A stretch of 45,614 bases of DNA, from IMG/VR virus record IMGVR_UViG_3300030328_003358, positions 4,153 to 49,766 of that record. One strand, written 5' to 3'. The translations under genes were made by a program, and so were the position numbers. Positions 5,972 through 45,614 of the stretch are shown one piece after another (positions within the stretch are counted from its first letter, which is position 1; each line of letters opens with the position of its first letter). Source of the stretch: a virus. The notes under the pieces were generated by a model that did not search any database, was not told the DNA's origin, and saw only the letters and a program-made list of their open reading frames with translations.

Positions 5972-8900
5972 TTAATAACATTTTATTTTATCTAAGTAAT
6001 CTTTAGCATTTTCATTCTTAACTTCTCTGTGATGATATACTCTATCTCTATATGTACTAAGAGGTTCATATATATCACCACCTCTAAAACTTCTACCTTC
6101 TGCTCCCTCCCACATTCCTTCTATAAACTTCGTTATACCTTCTATTCTTGGAGCACCATTTAAACCACCTTTACTCATATCAACAGTAGTCTTATATAAT
6201 TCCACTGGATCTAAAAAATATTGACCAGTTATAAATCCTATAGCTACTTTCTGAGCAGTTTTATTTATATTATTTGATACCATAAAGTTAGCATAGTTTT
6301 CTAATGGAGGCAATAATGAAAAATTATTAGCTTCTCTTGTATTGAGTTTAAAGTCGAAATAATCTCCGACCAACGTATTATCCCATTCTTTTATAAAAGC
6401 TCCCTTAAAGTCATTATTTATCTGCTCATGATACTGTTTAGCAACACTTGCGTCCATAATAGTTTTTGCATCTCCATTCATTGCTCTATTTAAGAATTGA
6501 AAAACCATTCTTTCATTTCTTGTATTGTTTTTAAACTTAATAATAGTCTGAAGTTCTCCTTGACTTTGTCCAACAATAGCAAATTTATTACCATCTGCAG
6601 TTGGAACTAATAGCATTCTTAAGAAAGCATTTTGCATTTCTTTGCTTAAATTTCCATTTATATCAGCAGCCATTTTAACATAATCAGAAAGTATCGCCAT
6701 ATCCTTTTCTGCTTCCAATCCAAATCTCACATTATCTCTTGGTGCATTAGGGTCTGCAAAACGAATTTCTCTCATATCTTGCTTGAATCTTTCTACTAGC
6801 ATTCTTACACTTGTTAACTCAACATCAGATATTCTCATGTCAAACCTTGTAAAAGCATCATGCATAGATCTTCTTACTCTCTCAGTTAAACCTGAGCCAG
6901 CAACTAACTCTTTTGGATTTTCTATAAAGACATCACCTTTTTGCCATTGTACAAATTCACGTTTTTTAAACACTCCTCTAAAAGTAACAACATCTCCATC
7001 TTTGCCAAACTCCCTCCTATATATAGCTGTATCAGCATTCAATTTACCTCCTGATGCTTTAGTTTTTGAATGAGTCTTTTTATACATGTTATATATATAC
7101 TCTGGATTATTAATTTGTTTATCAAATTCAGAAATAAGTGCTTGATATTTTTCTTTCTGTTTTGTCCAGAATTGTCCAGCATCTGAGTTTAACTGTCTTC
7201 TAAAAGCCAAATCACCTAATGTTTTATCAATTTGATTAAGCTTATACTTTATATTAACAATTTGTGCTGCAGTTGTCTGGTCTTTAAACATGCCTTTTAT
7301 AGCCAAATTAACATTAGTTGGAGTAGCTTCAGTTATATCTGCTATAATTCTACCTAGACCAGAATCAATAGGAGGTTTATTGTTAAATACTTGAGGTAAA
7401 CTTTGTCTCATTTTTGATAAAGATTGAATTATAGGTAATTGACTTACATTGAAACTCTGGCTACCATGATAATGACTATCACCTAAAAATCTCAATAGGT
7501 CTTTTGTGAATCCTTCTAGCTCATTTGGTTTCCACTTAAATTTACCTTTTTGAGCTTTAGATTCAACCCAAGAACCACCTGCATTTCTTATTTTAAAAAG
7601 AATATCTTCATACTTATGTACCATTTCAAATGCAGACATTTTTCTAGATGTACCATCACCAAAATTCTCAGTCATTAATGATAAATTATGTAATTCACCA
7701 AGAGGGTCAAGTATCCCTTTTTTTATTCTATTATAATGAACTTTAACATCTGGTGGTAATTGGTCAAAAGTTCTATACTCAACTTGTCCATTAGTTTTAG
7801 TTCTTTTTATTTGAAGGAATCCATTGTCAGGATGCATCCAAAGCATTTGATCTATATCTATATCTGTTATTTTCTGATTTTTTTTGTATATATCTATACT
7901 AGCTTTTACCATTCTTTTTACATATTCTATTGAGTTTACTAAATGTAATCCATCTCTAACATGTATTTCATATCTATCTCTAGTATTCCTGTCTATAAAC
8001 TCTGGTCCAAAGGTGAATCTAGTATCACCATTTTCCCCTACCATAGTACCGCCCCATTTATTCTTTTTATTCTTAGACCAACCTGCGCTGAATATACTCC
8101 CAGTTGTATTATTTTGAGCATCATATTTTGCTCCAAAGAATTGAGCTACTGTTGATATTATTGAAGTTTGTCTAATCGTTTTAGCTCTTTTGTTACCTAA
8201 TGTAGTCATTAAATCTGAATAATCAGATTGATCACCTAAAAGATTAACTTCTTCTACTAAAACTTCTTTATATACATTATCTGTTACTTGGCTATATCCA
8301 GATACTTTGTATATTTCTTTAATAACAGTTTTAGGAAGTGTAAATAAACTTGCTGATTTATCTAAATCAAAATCTGCATCTTGAGGATCTATAACATCTA
8401 ATACATTCATTTCACTTACAGGTCCTCTTCTTTGGTCTATAAGCTTTTCTACCCTAGAGATAACCCAATCATTTATACCAGGTTTAGGTTGCCTTAAATC
8501 AACTTTACCTAGGTGAATTGAATTATATGAAGGACTTTCTCCTTTTTCAGTTAAAATATTATACATAGCATCAGCATTATTATTACGTCTACTATTTAAA
8601 TTGCTTTTTAAATAATAGTCTCTATTATTACCCACAAATTCATGTCTTGTTCCATTGATAAATAAAGCAAGTTCCCCAACTGATTGTAGATTTTCAACAG
8701 CTGCATAATCAAGTAAAGTTTGCATATCTTTAGTTAATGCTTTTTCTAATCTCATAAAAGCTTCTTGATTTCTAGTAATCTTATCTTTTCCAAGAGATTT
8801 ACCACCTTGAAATTTAACATCAAGATGAGGTCCAACAACTTGAAATCCATCTGCTCCAAAAGAAACTGCGAAATCATGACCATTAAAATCAGTTTTATAC

Positions 8901-11900
8901 TTACCTAATCCGTGTTTCTTTAAAAAGTTATTATTAACTTTAAATATTAATGTTAAATCTTGAGTGCTACTTAATCCTTGAGGAGTAGCTTTCATTGTTT
9001 TAGAAACAGGGTCAACTGTAAAAGTCATAAAAGAAGATAAAGGCATTTTATGCTCTTTTGAAGACATACCAGAGCCACCAAAACTATATTGAGTTCCTTC
9101 ATATCTGACAGGATAACTATAGCCTGAACCTGTTGTCATCACTGAATAAGAACCATTTTCTACTGCTGAAGTTATCATATTACGCTTATTCATATATTCA
9201 GAAGATACTAGTTTTTCTAATTGAGGCATCATAAATTCATAGACAGGTAAACCATCTGCTGCTAATATAGCTTCTAAACCTATTAAAGAACCTGCATTAT
9301 CTCCAGTCTGTTTTAAATTACCCAATAATTTTTCACTTATTAATTTATAGGCAAATGGATTAGCATTCATTCTGCTTAATTGGTCTCTCATACTGCTTAT
9401 ATTTTCATTTATTTTTGTTAGTTTATTAATATCCATAAGTGCTTGGTTTGATAATAAATTAGCAAATCCAGTTGAAACAGTAGCGTCATGAGTTCCATTT
9501 ATACTTTTAATAAATATCCCCTCTAATCCTACCTTCATAATCTGCTTAGTTCCTTCTATTTGTGGTATCATCATAGAGCCATCATTCATCCAATCTTCAC
9601 TTGATTCTCTAGTCATTATTATACCAGGATTCTCACGCTCTCCAGTTTTAGGGTTGAATCTCTGATGTCTTTTATGAGTGCTTTGAAAACCTATAGCATC
9701 TACCCAATATCTATTGTCTCCACCTTTTTTATCAGTTTTTTCAAAAGTAGATGATGATTGTTCAATACTTGATTTTTGCATCATTTGGTCTATAACAGGA
9801 TTCCATTTATATGCAGTTTTACCAACATGAACAACTATTTCGCCAGTTTTATTGTCTATAAAGCTATACATTTCTACAGGTTTAATAGCTACATTAAATC
9901 CAATCACTTTACCATTTTCCCAAATAAACCAATCTCTAGTTGCTCCCTTACTCATTAAAGTAGCTACCATTCTTGGTAAGCTTAAGTATTTTTCTCCATT
10001 CATTACAGAGGCAGGTATTTTATCATGATGAGCCATAATTTTTTCAATGAAAGCATTTACTTGCTTTTCACTCATATCAGGGTTATCTCTTCTGAATTGT
10101 TCTTTTAATCCTTTCCTTGCTATTTGACTACTATCAAAGAATCCATTAGGATCACCACCCTCATCAAATATATTCAAATCTCTTCTTTTCTTCATCTTGC
10201 CAGAACGAGCATCAAATGTCTCATTTAAAAACATTTCATAAGGACCCCACATTTTAGAATCTTTTTCTAAAAATCTTGGTAAGAATTCTCTTGCAAATTC
10301 AAGATTTCTTTTTGTTAAAGCCATTCCACCTCTAGGACTACTTAATTTCAGATATTTTAATGTTGCCATTTTATCTGATATACTCATCCTTTGAGACATA
10401 AAATCAATTAAATCAAAAGTAAGGTCTCCAGATAATCTTGTTATTTGAATAAGTTTCTTTGCTTGGTTCACATTTAGAGAAGAATCCTTAGTAATATCTC
10501 CATTTTTATCAAACTTAACCCCAAGCTCTTTTGTTAAGAAATCATTAACTTTTTTCTCTATTTCAAATTTAGTAGAAGTAATTCCATTTTCCTTATCTTT
10601 AGCTTTGAAAATAGTAAATAAATTATCTCTAAGTTTACTTTGGTCTTTAAATCTAATATTATTAAGCATTCTTTCTTTCATAATAGTAGGCACTAGTATG
10701 TGTGTTTGTTCATCTAATTGAACAGAAAAGAATTGAGATTTAGCAGATTCTCCAGTATTTCCTAATTTACTTAAAAGGTTTATCATCTCAACATCACCTG
10801 TAGATAGTAATTCTTTATATATTATATCAGTTTGAACACCTTTCTCTAAAAGAATATTTATTTGATTTCTTATGTTGTCATCAAGTTTAGTCCTAAATCC
10901 TTTTTCAGTTCCAAATTTAGTTCCCAAAAGCATCATTTCACCCATACCCATATCAAGACCTAAGGTATTTGCAACTTTATTTATACCTACATTCCAATTA
11001 GAGATAACTGTTTTATCTATAAGCAGTCTACCATTTTCAAAAGTAGCTATAGCTGATTTTTTACTACCTAATGCTCCTTGTATAACTTGATAAGTATCTA
11101 TAACGAAATCTTCAAACTTTAGAGTCTTTTCATTATTAGCTTTTAATAAAAGATTATTCGATTCTATTTTTGATTTCTGAGATTTAATAATAGGGTCTAA
11201 AATAGAGTCAACATACTGCTCTATAGTAAAATTGCCTCTTATAACTTCATCTAACCCTCCCTCTAAAAGTTTTTTAGGTACTTTTGGGTTAAGATTATAT
11301 AAATCCATTAATTTTTTAGGTTCAAATGTTAATGCATCAGTAAAATCATTTTTCAAGCTCCATTTCATTTCATATTGCTGTCTACTCGTAGTATTACCAA
11401 TATGAGGTTTATTCTCTCTATTAAATAAAGATAGATTGTCAGATTGAGTCTTCATGTAATCATTTACATCATCTATACCATCTATTCTAAGAATATCATT
11501 TCTTCTATCTATTGACTTTTTAGCAAATTCTATTAATACTTCCTTGAACTCTCTAATACTTTTAGTATCAGTACCCATGTTTGTCATCATATCTGAGGTT
11601 AATTGTCTAAGAGTTTTAGAATTATCCATAAAGTTTCTTAATCCTATAAAATCTCTATTTGTAAGTAATGTTTGAAGTATAACTGAAAGATTCATACCAT
11701 CTTGAGATAACTTTTGCATTTCGTTTACTATATTTTCATTTAATTTTCCACCTTCTTTTACAATTTGAGCATTGTTATTATCTATTTTTTCTGATAGTTC
11801 TGCCATAGCTATACCTAGATTATTGCTCATTTTATGTAATTCTATTAAATCAGTAGTTGTAAACCTTTTACTTAAAGAATTCATTTCTACTATTTGTTGT

Positions 11901-14900
11901 AAGAATTCAGCTCTAGATTGTCCAAATTGCTTAACATCTAGCCTTTGGTCAACAAATGTAAGCTGATTGCTTTTCTCGTTTAAAGCTGCCCTTATTGGAG
12001 TCTCTACATATCTTTCATATTGATTTATAATCACTTCTATATCTCTTGCTTCTGCTGAAGTTAAATTAGGATCAGTTAATAATGTATCTCTTAATGCTTT
12101 AGCGCTACGAATATTTAATTTACCATTAGCCTTAACAGATAATAAACTCTTATCATTTAATGTTTTTAGTATCACTTGCTTCAGAGAGCTATTTAACAAA
12201 GGATTACCAGTTATGTCCTTGATAAATCTATCTGTCACAAAGTTCTTAAATGCATTGAATTCAGTAGGAGTAGTAAATAAATTACCTAATACTTTTTCAA
12301 TTTCACCTTTCATAGATTCTAATTGAGAGAGTTCTATTTTTTGACGAGTAGTCTTTCCGCTTCCACCTAAATTTAACATTTCTAAAGTTGTATTTAAAGT
12401 CGCTACAAATACTTGTAACTCACTATCTTTACTAAGATCTAAACTTCTTATTTCTTCAACTTTTCCTTTACCTTCAATTTTTTCTATTATTTCAAAAGAT
12501 ACATTGCCTTTTAAAACATCTTTTATATATCTATGTAATGCTTGAGCTGCAGCATTAGGACCTCCTCCATTGAAGACAAAATAAGCTGTTTCATTTCTTC
12601 TGTATCTATGTGCATTTTGTATTGAATCCCATATTGGTCTTGAACCCAATATGTTATTATCAAAGAAACCTTCTTTATCTCCCCAAGTAGGAATGTTTTC
12701 TTGCCATCTTCCTCCTTTAGGTGCAAATATCTTATTATGTAATAATTCTGTATTTTCTACATATAATTGCCTAAATTTATTTGCATCTGGTAGTACATCT
12801 ACACCGTCATATTTAACTCCTCTTTCACTTACTTCAATAATTCCTAGCATTTTACCACGTTCAATCATATCAAGTAATGTTTGAGCTGACCTTTGAAAAG
12901 GTTGCTCTCCAGTTGTTGTATCTGGGTGACTTCTCAATTTATATATAGCTTCTTCAACACTACTATGTATATATAGCTTTCCGCCTTCAAGTTGGCTTGA
13001 ATTTGCCATTCCTAATATTTCTAAGGATTTTTGTACATGAGGAACTACTATGTTTTCTATTTCAGCAGCAACTTTTAATCTTGAATTCATTAACTCATCG
13101 TTTATTAAAGAAAAGTTATCTGCAGTCAGTTTAGCTCCAGTAGACAATTTTACATCTCTAAAACCTTCAACAAATTCTAAAGCTTGCTCTTTAGTCATAG
13201 ACATTACAACCTCACCTACTCTTCCTATGCTTGCTGTACCTTGTAATTCTTTAATAATAACATTTGCTTCTTGCAATGAACTAACTTCTTCTCTTACTTT
13301 AGCAGCTTCTTCATTTTTACCTTTAGATTCTAATAATTCAGCTTTATCTATAAGTCTTGTTATTTCAGTACCTAGATGTGTTTCCCAATTATCTAATTTT
13401 GCTTTACCTTTATTCTGAATTACGCTTTCTTGATAATCTTGAGCTAATACTTTTTCATTTTTCTCAGAAGATAGCATTTTTGCTCTAATAGACTCTATTA
13501 AAGCTTTAGCATCCTTAGTGTTACTTATAGACATATTCTCTAATTGAACTATAGATTCTTCAACATCTAAATGAGCAAACATATTATATCTCTCTAATCC
13601 TTCTTGGTCTTTACCTAAGACATCCATAGCTTTAACCATTTTAGATATTTCCCCACCATTCATTTCAAAGCCTGTTTCTGAATAATATCTTTTTGTAGGA
13701 GTATTACCAAATAAATCAACTTCAGCAATAGTCTTTAAGTCTCTTTCTGCAAAAAATCCTTGTCCAAATTTAGGGTCAGCTTTCCACTTACCAAAAGATT
13801 TACCTCTTTTCATATAAAGCATACCTACCCAATGGTCTGCTATAAATTTATCAATAGGATAGTCTTCTGTAAATAATATACCATCATCATGAGCTTGTTT
13901 ATACATTTGAGCATTCATAGCTAATGAACCTGCGGAAGCTCTAAAAAATGAACGTACACCATCTTTTCTTATCTCTCCTAATATGTTTTTCATTAAACCA
14001 GGCATATCTTTTTGAACTTCTTTAAAAGTATTTTCCAACATTTTTCTATCTGCTAATCCTTGAGCTCCTGTTAATTTCTGTCCATTACCCACAACAGAGG
14101 ATATTCTTTCTAGTCTTGCTTTACTAAAATTACTTATGTTTTTAGATGTAGAGAAAGCTTGTAGCGCATCATCTCCACCACTTATAACTATACTATTAAC
14201 AAATCCTGTTAATTCTGCATCTGACATATTTTTAACAGGTCTAAATCTATTTCTTATTAATTTACCTAAAGTACCTATATCTGCTATCATACCACTATGT
14301 CCAAATTGAACTTGTTTTCCACCAGGTATATACCTAATAGGCGCTAAGATTGCTCCCATTTTAGCCCCATGCATAGCTCTATGATACCATTCATCATAAC
14401 TCCATTGAGTTTCATCTAATCCATAAGAGTCTGCATAACTATCTCCTAATTCTCCCATAATTGTATCATAACCAGCAAGAAGTGTTGCTTCGTATGCTAC
14501 ATCACCTAATACTTTAGCTAATTTATTGTTAATCCCTAATCTCATTTGCAATGCATAACTTATAGAATGACCAAAATTCTTATGAACAGACTCTTGAGTA
14601 ACTTTCATTACACCTTCAACTAAATCATCTAATTGCTTACTATCTGGACTTAATCTAGTTAATTTTTGAACAGATTCTTTTACTTCGCTACGAACACTAG
14701 CTTTTATAACATCGCTTGATAATGGATTGTATTTAATACTTTTTCTTGCAGATGAGAAAGGATTTAGCCAAGTTTTCCAATCTAATGTTTTAATTTCTTT
14801 TTTAGATGCATCAGCAAGGCTTTTTCTAGTATTCCTTACTATTTCTTTCATGCCAGCTTTAGAAACATTTTCTAACCCAGCTTCAGCTAAATCAGTTAAT

Positions 14901-15448
14901 CCTTTTTTTGCAGCATATGCAACACCAGCTCCTCTTGCTTTAGAAAGCAATTGAAGACCTTTGCCTACTGTGCCAATACCAGTTAATATACCTGCACCAG
15001 TACCTACTATATAACCTGCTCTACCAGCCCAAGATTCATCTTTCCAAGCTTGAGAACCCATTTTTCTAGCCCATCCAGAGCCTTCTTCATCTATTTCTTG
15101 AGCTAAATCTACTACAGTAGGAACTACAAGTGTTTCTGCAGCTCCCCATAAAGCATTGCCTACAAAATCATATAAAGCATTACTATCCATAATTGATTCA
15201 GAGTCTTCAGAAGTAGGTGCTCCTGTTTCTGCACTTCCTGGATAAACTTTACGCCTAGTATAAGCTAATGGATCTGAAGGCTTTCTTGTCCATTCAGTTG
15301 AAGAAAGACTGTCCCAATCAACTACTTCTGTTGAAGGTCTATTTGACTCAGAATAAGTTTTTTCAAAATCATGAAATCTATTTCTTCTTTTTCTTTCAAA
15401 TTCCTCCAGTTCTTTTAACTGTTCATCATCTTCCCAAGGGTTACTCAT
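5972..15448 (-). CDS. 3158-aa virion protein, candidate virion-packaged RNA polymerase
   Basis: The gene fills a fifth of the window, with AGGAG before the ATG and 10-12 bases to each neighbour. The N-terminus is charged, then a glycine-rich hydrophobic segment (residues about 141-165) resembles membrane-active segments of ejection proteins. The key signal is DADFDLDK: D2359, D2361 and D2363 match the DxDxD metal-binding motif of two-barrel RNA polymerases (NADFDGDQ in bacterial beta-prime), and the non-Gly fourth position followed by Lys resembles the crAss-like phage virion RNA polymerase form. RRGP (2340-2343) lies 16 residues upstream. NDGSMM (1955-1960) and a lysine in GIFIKS (K1981) could belong to the first barrel. 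The rest is long helical sequence. Location among virion genes argues for packaging and ejection with the DNA. The polymerase call rests on one motif and context. Confidence 0.6.
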   Translation of the reverse strand: MSNPWEDDEQLKELEEFERKRRNRFHDFEKTYSESNRPSTEVVDWDSLSSTEWTRKPSDPLAYTRRKVYPGSAETGAPTSEDSESIMDSNALYDFVGNALWGAAETLVVPTVVDLAQEIDEEGSGWARKMGSQAWKDESWAGRAGYIVGTGAGILTGIGTVGKGLQLLSKARGAGVAYAAKKGLTDLAEAGLENVSKAGMKEIVRNTRKSLADASKKEIKTLDWKTWLNPFSSARKSIKYNPLSSDVIKASVRSEVKESVQKLTRLSPDSKQLDDLVEGVMKVTQESVHKNFGHSISYALQMRLGINNKLAKVLGDVAYEATLLAGYDTIMGELGDSYADSYGLDETQWSYDEWYHRAMHGAKMGAILAPIRYIPGGKQVQFGHSGMIADIGTLGKLIRNRFRPVKNMSDAELTGFVNSIVISGGDDALQAFSTSKNISNFSKARLERISSVVGNGQKLTGAQGLADRKMLENTFKEVQKDMPGLMKNILGEIRKDGVRSFFRASAGSLAMNAQMYKQAHDDGILFTEDYPIDKFIADHWVGMLYMKRGKSFGKWKADPKFGQGFFAERDLKTIAEVDLFGNTPTKRYYSETGFEMNGGEISKMVKAMDVLGKDQEGLERYNMFAHLDVEESIVQLENMSISNTKDAKALIESIRAKMLSSEKNEKVLAQDYQESVIQNKGKAKLDNWETHLGTEITRLIDKAELLESKGKNEEAAKVREEVSSLQEANVIIKELQGTASIGRVGEVVMSMTKEQALEFVEGFRDVKLSTGAKLTADNFSLINDELMNSRLKVAAEIENIVVPHVQKSLEILGMANSSQLEGGKLYIHSSVEEAIYKLRSHPDTTTGEQPFQRSAQTLLDMIERGKMLGIIEVSERGVKYDGVDVLPDANKFRQLYVENTELLHNKIFAPKGGRWQENIPTWGDKEGFFDNNILGSRPIWDSIQNAHRYRRNETAYFVFNGGGPNAAAQALHRYIKDVLKGNVSFEIIEKIEGKGKVEEIRSLDLSKDSELQVFVATLNTTLEMLNLGGSGKTTRQKIELSQLESMKGEIEKVLGNLFTTPTEFNAFKNFVTDRFIKDITGNPLLNSSLKQVILKTLNDKSLLSVKANGKLNIRSAKALRDTLLTDPNLTSAEARDIEVIINQYERYVETPIRAALNEKSNQLTFVDQRLDVKQFGQSRAEFLQQIVEMNSLSKRFTTTDLIELHKMSNNLGIAMAELSEKIDNNNAQIVKEGGKLNENIVNEMQKLSQDGMNLSVILQTLLTNRDFIGLRNFMDNSKTLRQLTSDMMTNMGTDTKSIREFKEVLIEFAKKSIDRRNDILRIDGIDDVNDYMKTQSDNLSLFNRENKPHIGNTTSRQQYEMKWSLKNDFTDALTFEPKKLMDLYNLNPKVPKKLLEGGLDEVIRGNFTIEQYVDSILDPIIKSQKSKIESNNLLLKANNEKTLKFEDFVIDTYQVIQGALGSKKSAIATFENGRLLIDKTVISNWNVGINKVANTLGLDMGMGEMMLLGTKFGTEKGFRTKLDDNIRNQINILLEKGVQTDIIYKELLSTGDVEMINLLSKLGNTGESAKSQFFSVQLDEQTHILVPTIMKERMLNNIRFKDQSKLRDNLFTIFKAKDKENGITSTKFEIEKKVNDFLTKELGVKFDKNGDITKDSSLNVNQAKKLIQITRLSGDLTFDLIDFMSQRMSISDKMATLKYLKLSSPRGGMALTKRNLEFAREFLPRFLEKDSKMWGPYEMFLNETFDARSGKMKKRRDLNIFDEGGDPNGFFDSSQIARKGLKEQFRRDNPDMSEKQVNAFIEKIMAHHDKIPASVMNGEKYLSLPRMVATLMSKGATRDWFIWENGKVIGFNVAIKPVEMYSFIDNKTGEIVVHVGKTAYKWNPVIDQMMQKSSIEQSSSTFEKTDKKGGDNRYWVDAIGFQSTHKRHQRFNPKTGERENPGIIMTRESSEDWMNDGSMMIPQIEGTKQIMKVGLEGIFIKSINGTHDATVSTGFANLLSNQALMDINKLTKINENISSMRDQLSRMNANPFAYKLISEKLLGNLKQTGDNAGSLIGLEAILAADGLPVYEFMMPQLEKLVSSEYMNKRNMITSAVENGSYSVMTTGSGYSYPVRYEGTQYSFGGSGMSSKEHKMPLSSFMTFTVDPVSKTMKATPQGLSSTQDLTLIFKVNNNFLKKHGLGKYKTDFNGHDFAVSFGADGFQVVGPHLDVKFQGGKSLGKDKITRNQEAFMRLEKALTKDMQTLLDYAAVENLQSVGELALFINGTRHEFVGNNRDYYLKSNLNSRRNNNADAMYNILTEKGESPSYNSIHLGKVDLRQPKPGINDWVISRVEKLIDQRRGPVSEMNVLDVIDPQDADFDLDKSASLFTLPKTVIKEIYKVSGYSQVTDNVYKEVLVEEVNLLGDQSDYSDLMTTLGNKRAKTIRQTSIISTVAQFFGAKYDAQNNTTGSIFSAGWSKNKKNKWGGTMVGENGDTRFTFGPEFIDRNTRDRYEIHVRDGLHLVNSIEYVKRMVKASIDIYKKNQKITDIDIDQMLWMHPDNGFLQIKRTKTNGQVEYRTFDQLPPDVKVHYNRIKKGILDPLGELHNLSLMTENFGDGTSRKMSAFEMVHKYEDILFKIRNAGGSWVESKAQKGKFKWKPNELEGFTKDLLRFLGDSHYHGSQSFNVSQLPIIQSLSKMRQSLPQVFNNKPPIDSGLGRIIADITEATPTNVNLAIKGMFKDQTTAAQIVNIKYKLNQIDKTLGDLAFRRQLNSDAGQFWTKQKEKYQALISEFDKQINNPEYIYNMYKKTHSKTKASGGKLNADTAIYRREFGKDGDVVTFRGVFKKREFVQWQKGDVFIENPKELVAGSGLTERVRRSMHDAFTRFDMRISDVELTSVRMLVERFKQDMREIRFADPNAPRDNVRFGLEAEKDMAILSDYVKMAADINGNLSKEMQNAFLRMLLVPTADGNKFAIVGQSQGELQTIIKFKNNTRNERMVFQFLNRAMNGDAKTIMDASVAKQYHEQINNDFKGAFIKEWDNTLVGDYFDFKLNTREANNFSLLPPLENYANFMVSNNINKTAQKVAIGFITGQYFLDPVELYKTTVDMSKGGLNGAPRIEGITKFIEGMWEGAEGRSFRGGDIYEPLSTYRDRVYHHREVKNENAKDYLDKIKCY

Positions 15449-40566: not shown

Positions 40567-40623
40567 AATAACCTCCTGGATGTAACTATCCCCTGGGAAC
40601 AAAAGTTCATTTTCAGTTTAACT

Positions 40624-40647
40624 TTAAACTTCGCTTAAGCCAGTCAT
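40624..40647 (-). CDS. possible 7-codon leader peptide
   Basis: In the late leader, TAAGGGAGAA is followed by ATG (40645-40647) and a frame MTGLSEV that stops at 40624-40626. The SD spacing is reasonable. It may be a translated upstream ORF, but its shortness makes chance likely. Confidence 0.25.
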   Translation of the reverse strand: MTGLSEV

Positions 40648-40683
40648 TTCTCCCTTACCCAAGTTTATATTAAAGCAGTTTTT

Positions 40684-40803
40684 ATCGGTTATTGGGGACA
40701 AACTCATAATCCTATTTGGTGAGCAACCCAACTTCTGAACCTCTAAGCAGAACTATTGCAAGTGTACTTAAAGGCTGATAGCTAAAATAAATCAACTACC
40801 GAT
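40684..40803 (-). ncRNA. structured 5' leader of the late transcript
   Basis: On the minus strand ATCGGT (40803 downwards) pairs with ACCGAT (ending at 40684), with TTG/CAA continuing past two positions, one of which can be a G-U pair only on this strand. Nested inside, in order, are CTAT/ATAG enclosing AAGT/ACTT, TTCTG/CAGAA, and TTGGG/CCCAA enclosing CTCA/TGAG, giving a cloverleaf-like multibranch fold of 120 nt. A sigma70-like promoter at 40809-40837 would start transcription at about 40802-40803, exactly at the closing stem. It may stabilise the 38-kb late mRNA or regulate anti-termination. No known family was recognised. Confidence 0.5.
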
Positions 40804-40808
40804 ATTGA

Positions 40809-40837
40809 AATATATAATATAACAAATCGAAAAACAA
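40809..40837 (-). promoter_or_regulatory. sigma70-like promoter for the late operon
   Basis: On the minus strand TTGTTT (40837-40832), a 17-bp spacer and TATATT (40814-40809) match -35 and -10 boxes. The expected start is about 6-7 bases downstream, at the 5' end of the structured leader. This is the only well-formed promoter I see upstream of the late genes. Confidence 0.55.
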
Positions 40838-40888
40838 GAAGGTTTTAAAAATTATAGAATTTTAGTGCTTACCCTTTATTATTATACT

Positions 40889-40910
40889 ACCCCCCTATCA
40901 GGGGGTTTTT
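40889..40910 (+). terminator. plus-strand terminator in the divergent region
   Basis: ACCCCC, loop CTATCA, GGGGGT and then TTTT form a classic intrinsic terminator read on the plus strand. No plus-strand gene lies upstream, so it probably shields the right-arm genes from antisense transcription entering from the left. Confidence 0.7.
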
Positions 40911-42707: not shown

Positions 42708-42789
42708 TTAATAGGCACTACAACGGACGAGGCTTAGGTTGGGTAAACAATCCCATTGGGTAGCGAGCGGTTGACCAAGTGCCTATTAA
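42708..42789 (+). promoter_or_regulatory. 12-bp stem-closed structured leader (riboswitch-like)
   Basis: TTAATAGGCACT (42708-42719) and AGTGCCTATTAA (42778-42789) form a perfect 12-bp stem around 58 nt that are about half G+C, far above the surrounding sequence. Inside are GGG/CCC (in GGGTAAACAATCCC) and GGTTGACC, with extra complementary pieces that allow a pseudoknot. The stem ends 6 bases before TTTGGAGG, the ribosome binding site of the 111-aa gene. The architecture suggests a cis-acting sensor or ribozyme. No consensus was recognised. Confidence 0.6.
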
Positions 42790-42808
42790 TAACTTTGGAG
42801 GTAAATTT

Positions 42809-43144: not shown

Positions 43145-43344
43145 TGAAAGTTAAATTAAGTGAACTGGTAACTAAAATCACATATAGTGAAGATAGTAAT
43201 GAAGAAATTATGAAATCAATAGTTCAGAATACTAAAAGTAATAAAGAACTTAAACTTATTAAGAGTAATAAGAAATATGGTTCTATGTCTGATGAAAAGA
43301 TTAAAGGTATTCTAAGAAGACAGTCTAAAGGAGGGACTAAATAA
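43144..43344 (+). CDS. small basic protein (66 aa)
   Basis: Follows GAGGAGGAG and overlaps the previous stop by one base. The 66-aa, lysine-rich protein (NTKSNKELKLIKSNKKYG) ends MSDEKIKGILRRQSKGGTK. Part of its N-terminus is copied in the remnant at 42206. No family was recognised. Confidence 0.7.
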   Translation: MKVKLSELVTKITYSEDSNEEIMKSIVQNTKSNKELKLIKSNKKYGSMSDEKIKGILRRQSKGGTK

Positions 43345-44048
43345 TGAATAAAGAATTATTATTATTAGAGGATAAAGTTACACAATTGGAAGATGCATTA
43401 GCAAAATTACAAACATCAAAAGAAGTACGCACTAGGAGAAATGGTATTATTTGTGATTTAGATGGAACTATTGCATTGATGAATGGTAAGAGAAGTCCTT
43501 TTGAATATCATAAATGTATTAATGATGATCCTAATACTCCAGTTATTAATGTATTAGAAACATTATTTAAATCTTGGAATACTAAAGATAAACCATATGA
43601 TATTATATTCACAACAGCAAGAATGAATCAATTGTTAAAGAATAAAATTCATAGTTTCTTTTCAACTTGTAAATCTACAGGTAAAAATATTGTAGCAAGT
43701 ACTGAAATGGATGATTTTCCTGATGGTATTATATTCACAAAAGAATGGAGACATCCTAATGTTAGTGAAGATTCTGAAAATATATATATACATTTAACTG
43801 ATATTTATTCATTAACATTATTATGGATATTAATCCATGTAAATATAACATTAGATCAATTTGTTATGTTTATAAGAGAAGATGATGATACTGATAAAGA
43901 TAGATATGTTAAACTGGAATTATATAAAGAACATATAAAACCACATTGGAAAGTTGATTTAGTATTAGATGATAGAAATCAGGTAGTTGAAATGTGGAGA
44001 CATGGTGCAAAATTACCTTGTCTTCAAGTTGCAGATGGTAATTTCTAA
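43344..44048 (+). CDS. HAD-family polynucleotide 3'-phosphatase (T4 Pnk phosphatase-like)
   Basis: The 234-aa protein has an N-terminal coiled coil (1-25), then HAD motif I CDLDGTI (D38, D40), motif II TTAR (90-93), the Pnk-like block FIREDDDTDKDRYVKLELY with K190, and motif IV VLDDRNQVVEMWR (D209, D210) followed by LQVADGNF. This order matches the C-terminal phosphatase domain of T4 polynucleotide kinase. The kinase domain is absent, and about 60 residues between motifs II and III are unlike the T4 enzyme. It should remove 3'-phosphates from RNA or DNA ends, as in repair of nuclease-cut RNA. AAAGGAGG precedes the ATG. Confidence 0.8.
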   Translation: MNKELLLLEDKVTQLEDALAKLQTSKEVRTRRNGIICDLDGTIALMNGKRSPFEYHKCINDDPNTPVINVLETLFKSWNTKDKPYDIIFTTARMNQLLKNKIHSFFSTCKSTGKNIVASTEMDDFPDGIIFTKEWRHPNVSEDSENIYIHLTDIYSLTLLWILIHVNITLDQFVMFIREDDDTDKDRYVKLELYKEHIKPHWKVDLVLDDRNQVVEMWRHGAKLPCLQVADGNF

Positions 44049-44060
44049 ATAACAAAAAAT

Positions 44061-44487
44061 TTGGAGGGTATCCTTCGGGAGTATTGATATATGTTGTCGG
44101 CCAACAATGTATATTAATATTAAGTTGTAAGCAGGTGAACAGGTTTTTGACTAAAGCCTTACCTGTGTTCGTATCTACATATGGTAGCAGTGGACCAAGT
44201 GGCGAGCTGTAAGGAGATAGTAACTCTATACGAATAGTTGTTGAATTTAACTAAAAGAAAGCGAGAGCTAGAGATTTAGTTACGGTATTAATTAGTACTA
44301 TCCAATATCTCGAGGAGTACTAAGTATAATCTAGTCATATAACTTGACTTTTAATAACGGGTAAGTTTGCAAGACTTATCAAACATTAAATAAGAAGACA
44401 TTCTTTGATTATACATATCGTGAGGCGAAAGCCCATAGAGATGTAGACAATTTGTAGGTAATCTCAAATCCTACACACACCCTCCAA
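44061..44487 (+). ncRNA. large ornate structured RNA, 427 nt, family unknown
   Basis: TTGGAGGGT (44061-44069) and ACCCTCCAA (44479-44487) close the element with a perfect 9-bp stem. Inside, in order: TCC(TTCG)GGA; a long hairpin around GTTG/CAAC; GAACAGGT/ACCTGTGTTC; a CGTAT/ATACG domain with smaller hairpins; TAACTAAA/TTTAGTTA (8 bp) capped by AGC(GAGA)GCT; TTAGTACT/AGTACTAA (8 bp); AGTCA/TGACT; GGTAAGT/ACTTATC (7 bp, one G-U); a TACAT/ATGTA hairpin with GGC(GAAA)GCC; and TGTAGG/CCTACA (6 bp). There is no ORF. Stable UUCG and GNRA tetraloops and nested closing stems indicate a folded RNA like GOLLD or ROOL in style, but shorter. It lies between co-directional genes. Confidence 0.8.
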
Positions 44488-45233: not shown

Positions 45234-45614
45234 TTAAGGGAGATTAGCGTCTTCCTGATAGTTTGTTTTGATAGACGGTTGGAGCTACATTTGAGGGTAC
45301 CTACACCAATGTTTAGCGGGCTATGTAATCAAGACGAACAGGATATATATTGGACAAAAGAAATCACGCTTAGCCTCAAGGATGGCAATCCCTGGACGAA
45401 GCCGCAGAGTAATTTGAAAAATATAAGTAGTAATACTACACAAAACACTGAGTCATGAACTTAAGTTAATGTGATGGAATATTATATACTTGTGTGGACA
45501 TATCCCTCATTACTACACCACACACTAGTTTAGAAAAAGTTGTCTGGCATATACAGGCGCAGTTTAAATGCATCTCGAGAGCACTGACAAAATATGCCAA
45601 TTATTAAACTTAAG
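45234..45614 (+). ncRNA. second structured non-coding region, cut by the window end
   Basis: No gene is visible in these 381 nt. Helices: CGTCTT (45248-45253) with AAGACG (45331-45336); ACATT (45287-45291) with AATGT (45308-45312); GGAT-GGCA-ATCC (45380-45391) enclosed by GCTT/AAGC (45368-45402); GTAGT-AAT-ACTAC (45427-45439); TGTGTGG (45491-45497) with CCACACA (45518-45524); and TGGCATAT (45545-45552) with ATATGCCA (45592-45599) enclosing CAGT/ACTG. TCCTG (45253-45257) can also pair with CAGGA (45338-45342), which would form a pseudoknot with the first helix. The element may go on beyond the window. Confidence 0.55.

Follow-up and report, generated by a model that had tools for sequence, protein, structure and literature searches.

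The stretch of DNA that we analyzed (45,614 nucleotides, hereafter the window) corresponds to positions 4153-49766 of a 50,215-base IMG/VR virus record. Its minus strand encodes the large and small terminase subunits, a P22-like portal and a head protein, and small early genes are located on the plus strand. The terminase showed less than 27% identity to isolated phages among the matches listed, and hundreds of metagenomic contigs are related to the window phage (best 75-87%). A 3158-aa ORF at 5972-15448 of the minus strand had no PHROG match. No tRNA was found in the window by ARAGORN or Rfam. Between two early genes lies a 427-nt element, called rna1 here, which starts 12 nt past the stop codon of a HAD/PNKP-phosphatase gene (43344-44048) and ends 20 nt before the next start codon. 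A first-pass annotation, made from the letters alone, had described this stretch as ORF-free, and indeed no plus-strand ORF of at least 50 aa was found within 44061-44487; a spurious 55-aa ORF on the minus strand overlaps the end of rna1. The element conserved in relatives ends at the same boundaries. The features are listed in Table 1.

Table 1. Coordinates of rna1, its helices and non-coding stretches of related phages (window numbering unless a locus is named)
Feature	Positions	Strand	Basis
rna1, whole element, new structured RNA, 427 nt	44061-44487	+	Fold z-score, homologues in six other IMG/VR records, covariation
P1, 5' strand, 9 bp with 44479-44487	44061-44069	+	Re-formed with other bases in L055, L035, L083 and L086
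P1, 3' strand	44479-44487	+	Sequence, fold
UCC-UUCG-GGA mini-hairpin, window-specific	44071-44080	+	Fold; missing in relatives
P2, 17-bp hairpin, loop CGGCCA (GGCC palindrome)	44081-44120	+	Folds
P3 hairpin (GCAGGU/ACCUGU), GUGAA internal loop	44131-44166	+	Double-sided changes in 6/6 pairs, six sequences
P4 (UUCGUAU/AUACGAA) with inner hairpins	44168-44234	+	Formed in 6/6 with differing sequence
P5 with P5a (AGC-GAGA-GCU), contains pseudoknot strand	44250-44280	+	Double-sided changes in 4/6 (P5) and 3/3 (P5a) pairs
Pseudoknot strand GAGAUU, partner AAUCUC at 44460-44465	44271-44276	+	Complementary in 6/6; G001 compensates 4/6 pairs
P6 (UUAGUAC/GUACUAA)	44292-44323	+	Double-sided changes in 4/7 pairs
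P7 multibranch (GUAUAAU/AUUAUAC) holding P7a, P7b and P7c	44324-44414	+	Covariation
P8 hairpin GUG-A-GGC-GAAA-GCC-CAU, most conserved sequence	44420-44436	+	Alignment
P9, 3' hairpin UGUAGG/CCUACA, loop holds pseudoknot strand AAUCUC	44453-44475	+	Alignment; loop GUAAUCUCAA common to the last hairpin of GOLLD
Non-coding stretch, related phage L044	5001-5945	-	
Non-coding stretch, related phage L062	3586-4579	-	
Non-coding stretch, related phage L016	4903-5951	-	
Non-coding stretch, related phage L046	4098-5317	-	

The minimum free energy (MFE) of rna1 was -121.3 kcal/mol. Of 100 dinucleotide-shuffled sequences, which averaged -91.4 ± 6.0, not one reached this value (z = -5.0), and a repeat of the shuffle test gave z = -5.3. 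Eighteen coding segments of the same length from both strands of the window served as controls and scored between -1.2 and +2.6. The earlier claim that the fold exceeds chance thus held in the window, and each homologue described below gave a folding z-score of -3.5 to -4.9. The perfect 9-bp closing stem claimed for the element (UUGGAGGGU paired with ACCCUCCAA) is present, as are the C(UUCG)G tetraloop (44073-44078) and the GNRA tetraloops GAGA (44263-44266) and GAAA (44427-44430). Most of the internal helices that the annotation had listed were upheld by comparative analysis; the UUCG mini-hairpin is confined to the window. A further helix, P1b (44122-44128 with 44447-44453), is not claimed here: it pairs in the window, L035 and L083 and is weak in L055 and G001.

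The first homologues, in L055 and L035, were found among terminase relatives, and pattern scans of IMG/VR added L083 and L084 (near-copies of L035) and L086. When folded singly before alignment, the homologues formed the long P2, P3, P4, P6, P9 and P7 with its side hairpins, and the individual MFE structures differed in places. We built a covariance model from homologues in five IMG/VR records, all belonging, like the window, to one uncultured phage group and representing three lineages besides the window. This model, which covers P7-P9, recovered with E = 1e-22 a homologue that had not been seen before; it lies in G001, the record with the closest terminase relative. rna1 is known in total from five distinct lineages and their near-copies, all within one uncultured group, and occurs in 7 of 43 related records (G000, G001, G014, G023, G036, G037, and G038). 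Other candidates were rejected: L087-L089 and L090-L093, picked up by pattern, proved to be coding sequence or chance matches, and L046, which by eye seemed to share P3/P4a, was unsupported by the R1 (rna1) model and by a second model, R2. Among 84,980 genomes of bacteria and archaea, a pattern scan hit coding sequence by chance only, BLASTN against 50,697 phage records gave no match, and no relatives were found with the HAD/PNKP protein as bait.

Covariation was estimated on a MAFFT alignment of P7-P9 that was not fitted to the structure (A1). In A1, 92.9% of pair cells were paired, vs. 35-51% with the partners slid by 1-3 columns, and 14 of 43 pairs showed double-sided changes, a number reached in none of 500 shuffles. 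A six-sequence alignment fitted to the model, which leans towards the structure, gave 97% paired cells and double-sided changes in 21/43 pairs. A hand count over 13 helices, biased upward by the manual alignment, gave 46/72 and 99%, respectively. The paired bases in homologues therefore change with compensation. Another reading, that AT-rich spacer DNA folds this way by chance, has only the general risk of judging one sequence in its favor and is refuted by this covariation; with the z-scores of six sequences and the blind match of the covariance model also against it, we give it practically no weight.

The 5' domain was modeled separately. R2 represents the 5' module and was built from L035, L083, and L086, three close sequences, since a MAFFT alignment of five P3-P4 modules misaligned the window and L055. 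R2 independently found L055 (E 0.003) and G001 (E 4e-7), both at the expected place, and did not detect the window's own 5' domain. We consider this domain of the window the most diverged because R2 finds L055 and G001 and misses the window; its homology to the others rests on topology.

A pseudoknot connects P5 with the loop of P9. The 3' bulge of P5 is complementary to the P9 loop over 6 bp in the window, and the counterpart in G001 is AUGUAU with AUACAU, in which four of the six original pairs are replaced on both sides; the G001 loop AAUACAUAA and bulge UUAUGUAU have eight complementary bases. This pairing was included in neither model and is complementary in all six sequences. Taken together with the gene neighborhoods described below, the analysis shows that rna1 has a conserved, covarying structure with a pseudoknot, holds no ORF, is not tied to one downstream gene and occurs in the early region where GOLLD is also found.

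As the annotation had predicted for a possible new class, no known family matched: Rfam 15 gave no match at gathering score across the whole window and no credible one for the rna1 region at E ≤ 10. None of the three outcomes that the annotation had named as refuting its claim was seen. The ROOL model (RF03087) was blank at E ≤ 10, and rna1 had no ARAGORN or Rfam match as a tRNA or tmRNA. No published description of rna1 was found in a literature search that reached few subscription papers.

The closing stem stands shortly 5' of a start codon, as in structured leaders and riboswitches. P1 ends 20-24 nt before the start codon in four of the five lineages, with a Shine-Dalgarno sequence between, and a separate promoter or terminator for rna1 is not obvious. 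rna1 could accordingly be read as the long structured 5' UTR of the gene 20 nt past P1, acting in cis as a leader in the manner of a riboswitch or an autoregulatory element, and the spacing in four of five loci counts against action in trans. However, in L035 P1 and the start codon are 177 nt apart, the distances between genes are what one expects in a densely packed early operon, and rna1 is far larger than usual leaders. The proteins encoded downstream are mutually unrelated across the five lineages, so that no steady link to one downstream gene family was seen, and relatives of three of these genes (those of the window, L055, and L086) occur in loci where R1 searches found no rna1. Because of these last two observations a gene-specific leader is unlikely.

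Comparison with GOLLD and ROOL, suggested by the annotation on grounds of style, proved apt, as in close relatives of the window phage a genuine GOLLD occupies this early region. GOLLD is an RNA-only 14-mer cage, and its Rfam model RF02032 covers the conserved 3' region. Seven of the 43 related records contain GOLLD, four of them above the cut-off (G009, G010, G019, and G034). It belongs to the early cluster and shares its strand with rna1. In L043, L028, and L036, where we measured it, ∼3.6-6 kb separate GOLLD from the terminase; the corresponding distance of rna1 is ∼3-6.5 kb. None of the 43 records contains both RNAs. We do not claim mutual exclusivity from this non-overlap, which is statistically weak and not significant (chance probability ∼26%, p about 0.26).

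The two RNAs share some parts. The terminal 3' hairpin with the loop GUAAUCUCA (44458-44467 in rna1) is also found in the GOLLD of L043, L028, and L096; in G001 the loop has changed to GUAAUACAU. In L086, the sequence just 5' of rna1 contains a 49-nt hairpin that matches (E 1e-7) the 5' domain of GOLLD from L043. A tRNA-Met adjoins rna1 in L035, L083, and L084, and a tRNA-Met together with an 80-nt conserved element accompanies rna1 in L035 and GOLLD in L036. The ∼80-nt non-coding element (AAGACTATGTAAGTG...GATATTGGCAGTCAT...AACCAAGCC) is present in L035, L036, and L043; it lies by the tRNA-Met (L035, L036) and by rna1 or GOLLD. Module exchange between rna1 and GOLLD is plausible from these sequence matches.

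The same phage group and early region, the tRNA-Met neighbor, the identical 10-nt loop that rna1 and GOLLD have in their last 3' hairpin and the GOLLD-like hairpin in L086 could also mean that rna1 is a true GOLLD diverged so far that recognizable sequence was lost. We judge this quite improbable. RF02032 detects GOLLD in the sister phages down to 112 bits but was blank on the window (gathering score, E ≤ 10) and on the seven rna1 records (E ≤ 1), and R1 was blank on the GOLLD records. Apart from the loop the fold is not shared: helices, conserved motifs and size (427 vs. ∼830 nt) differ, and rna1 has motifs of its own, namely the GUGAGGC..GCCCAU hairpin and the P5-P9 pseudoknot.

The genes beside rna1 differ at every site, as expected of an intron-like or retro-element-like mobile RNA hopping between intergenic sites, but GOLLD neighbors vary too. 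The other end of G001 contains a second, 196-nt piece of rna1, 97% identical and beside a different gene (G001:C1:54336-54531, L147, and 508-703, L146); it could stem from a variant strain or from assembly at the contig end, or be a true second copy. Since rna1 has no internal ORF or group I/II intron match in Rfam, is not inserted within genes and sits between intact small ORFs, we regard such an element as very unlikely.

Further non-coding elements were observed nearby. On the minus strand, a non-coding region at 40570-40910, upstream of the terminase small subunit gene, is kept in most related contigs. RNAalifold gave -45.6 kcal/mol for the minus strand (16 sequences) vs. -0.2 ± 0.4 for shuffled columns of the plus-strand alignment; there was no credible Rfam match, and the region may be a further structured RNA with a wider distribution. 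A second non-coding region conserved in the early operon lies at 45234-45545 of the plus strand and has homologues in L034, L035, L036, L043, and L100. Its 3' hairpin (UGUGUGG/CCACACA) is near-invariant, and the loop of this hairpin, AUUACUAC, is complementary to an invariant GUAGUAAU upstream; the single-sequence fold of the region was no better than shuffled. A short element at ∼42722-42790 of the plus strand (ACAACGGACGAGGCTTAGG...GCGAGCGGTTGACC), also found in L034 (∼2367-2300, minus strand), looks structured. Related phages in which neither rna1 nor GOLLD was found carry other non-coding stretches of 0.8-1.2 kb in the same early region (Table 1). Two of these had low folding z-scores (L044, -4.4; L062, -3.5), and there was no GOLLD match at E ≤ 1.

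We conclude that rna1 is a new RNA class within a known kind, the large ornate phage RNAs. GOLLD and ROOL are phage-borne, lie near tRNA islands and form RNA-only cages; among large ornate RNAs, protein-free assembly has been shown for these two and for OLE (PMC12286853). The contig hosting rna1 is a phage, and rna1 shares with GOLLD that it is large, ornate, non-coding, phage-encoded and near a tRNA-Met. ROOL, another phage RNA that is large and ornate, likewise contains pseudoknots and often lies near tRNAs, but the ROOL solved by cryo-EM has 659 nt (PMC12286853) vs. 427 nt for rna1. OLE, also large and ornate, has palindromic GGCC/GAUC symmetric kissing loops (PMC12286853) that recall the P2 loops of rna1, whereas rna1 has no Rfam match and its P2 palindromes are not universal. 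In L086 and G001, the P2 apical loop is CUGAUCA (UGAUCA palindrome), and in L035 and L055 it is a GACG tetraloop. To our knowledge, OLE RNA has not been found in phages.

The reading we prefer, and think fairly likely, is that rna1 works in trans as a structural RNA of the same kind as GOLLD and ROOL and belongs to a class absent from Rfam. We infer co-transcription, processing, action in trans, oligomerization and functional equivalence to GOLLD from position and comparison. rna1 would be transcribed inside the early-gene operon, where we place it because it starts 12 nt past the phosphatase stop codon, and would probably be trimmed at or near P1. Within the P1-closed fold, P2, P3 and P4 would make up one domain and P5 to P9 another, which the pseudoknot between P5 and the P9 loop would lock. 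The product would most likely act as a structural RNA, possibly a homo-oligomer, and may fill the role that GOLLD has in sister phages. The palindromic P2 loops of the window, L086, and G001 could, judged by their sequence, kiss those of a second copy. They are the sole hint of self-kissing, and because they are missing in L035 and L055 we only infer oligomerization. It is a tentative and rather doubtful extension that rna1, GOLLD and the further unclassified RNAs of 0.8-1 kb form an interchangeable set with one role in early infection, swapping modules such as the terminal hairpin loop and the 5' hairpin, with rna1 forming its own RNA-only homo-oligomer.

A distinct class of half the size in the early region of relatives of GOLLD phages provides a natural comparison for the job of GOLLD and ROOL. 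Traits common to rna1 and GOLLD, i.e., location among early genes, tRNA neighborhood, the last hairpin and perhaps oligomerization, point to what matters for function, and at 427 nt rna1 is short enough for routine structural work.
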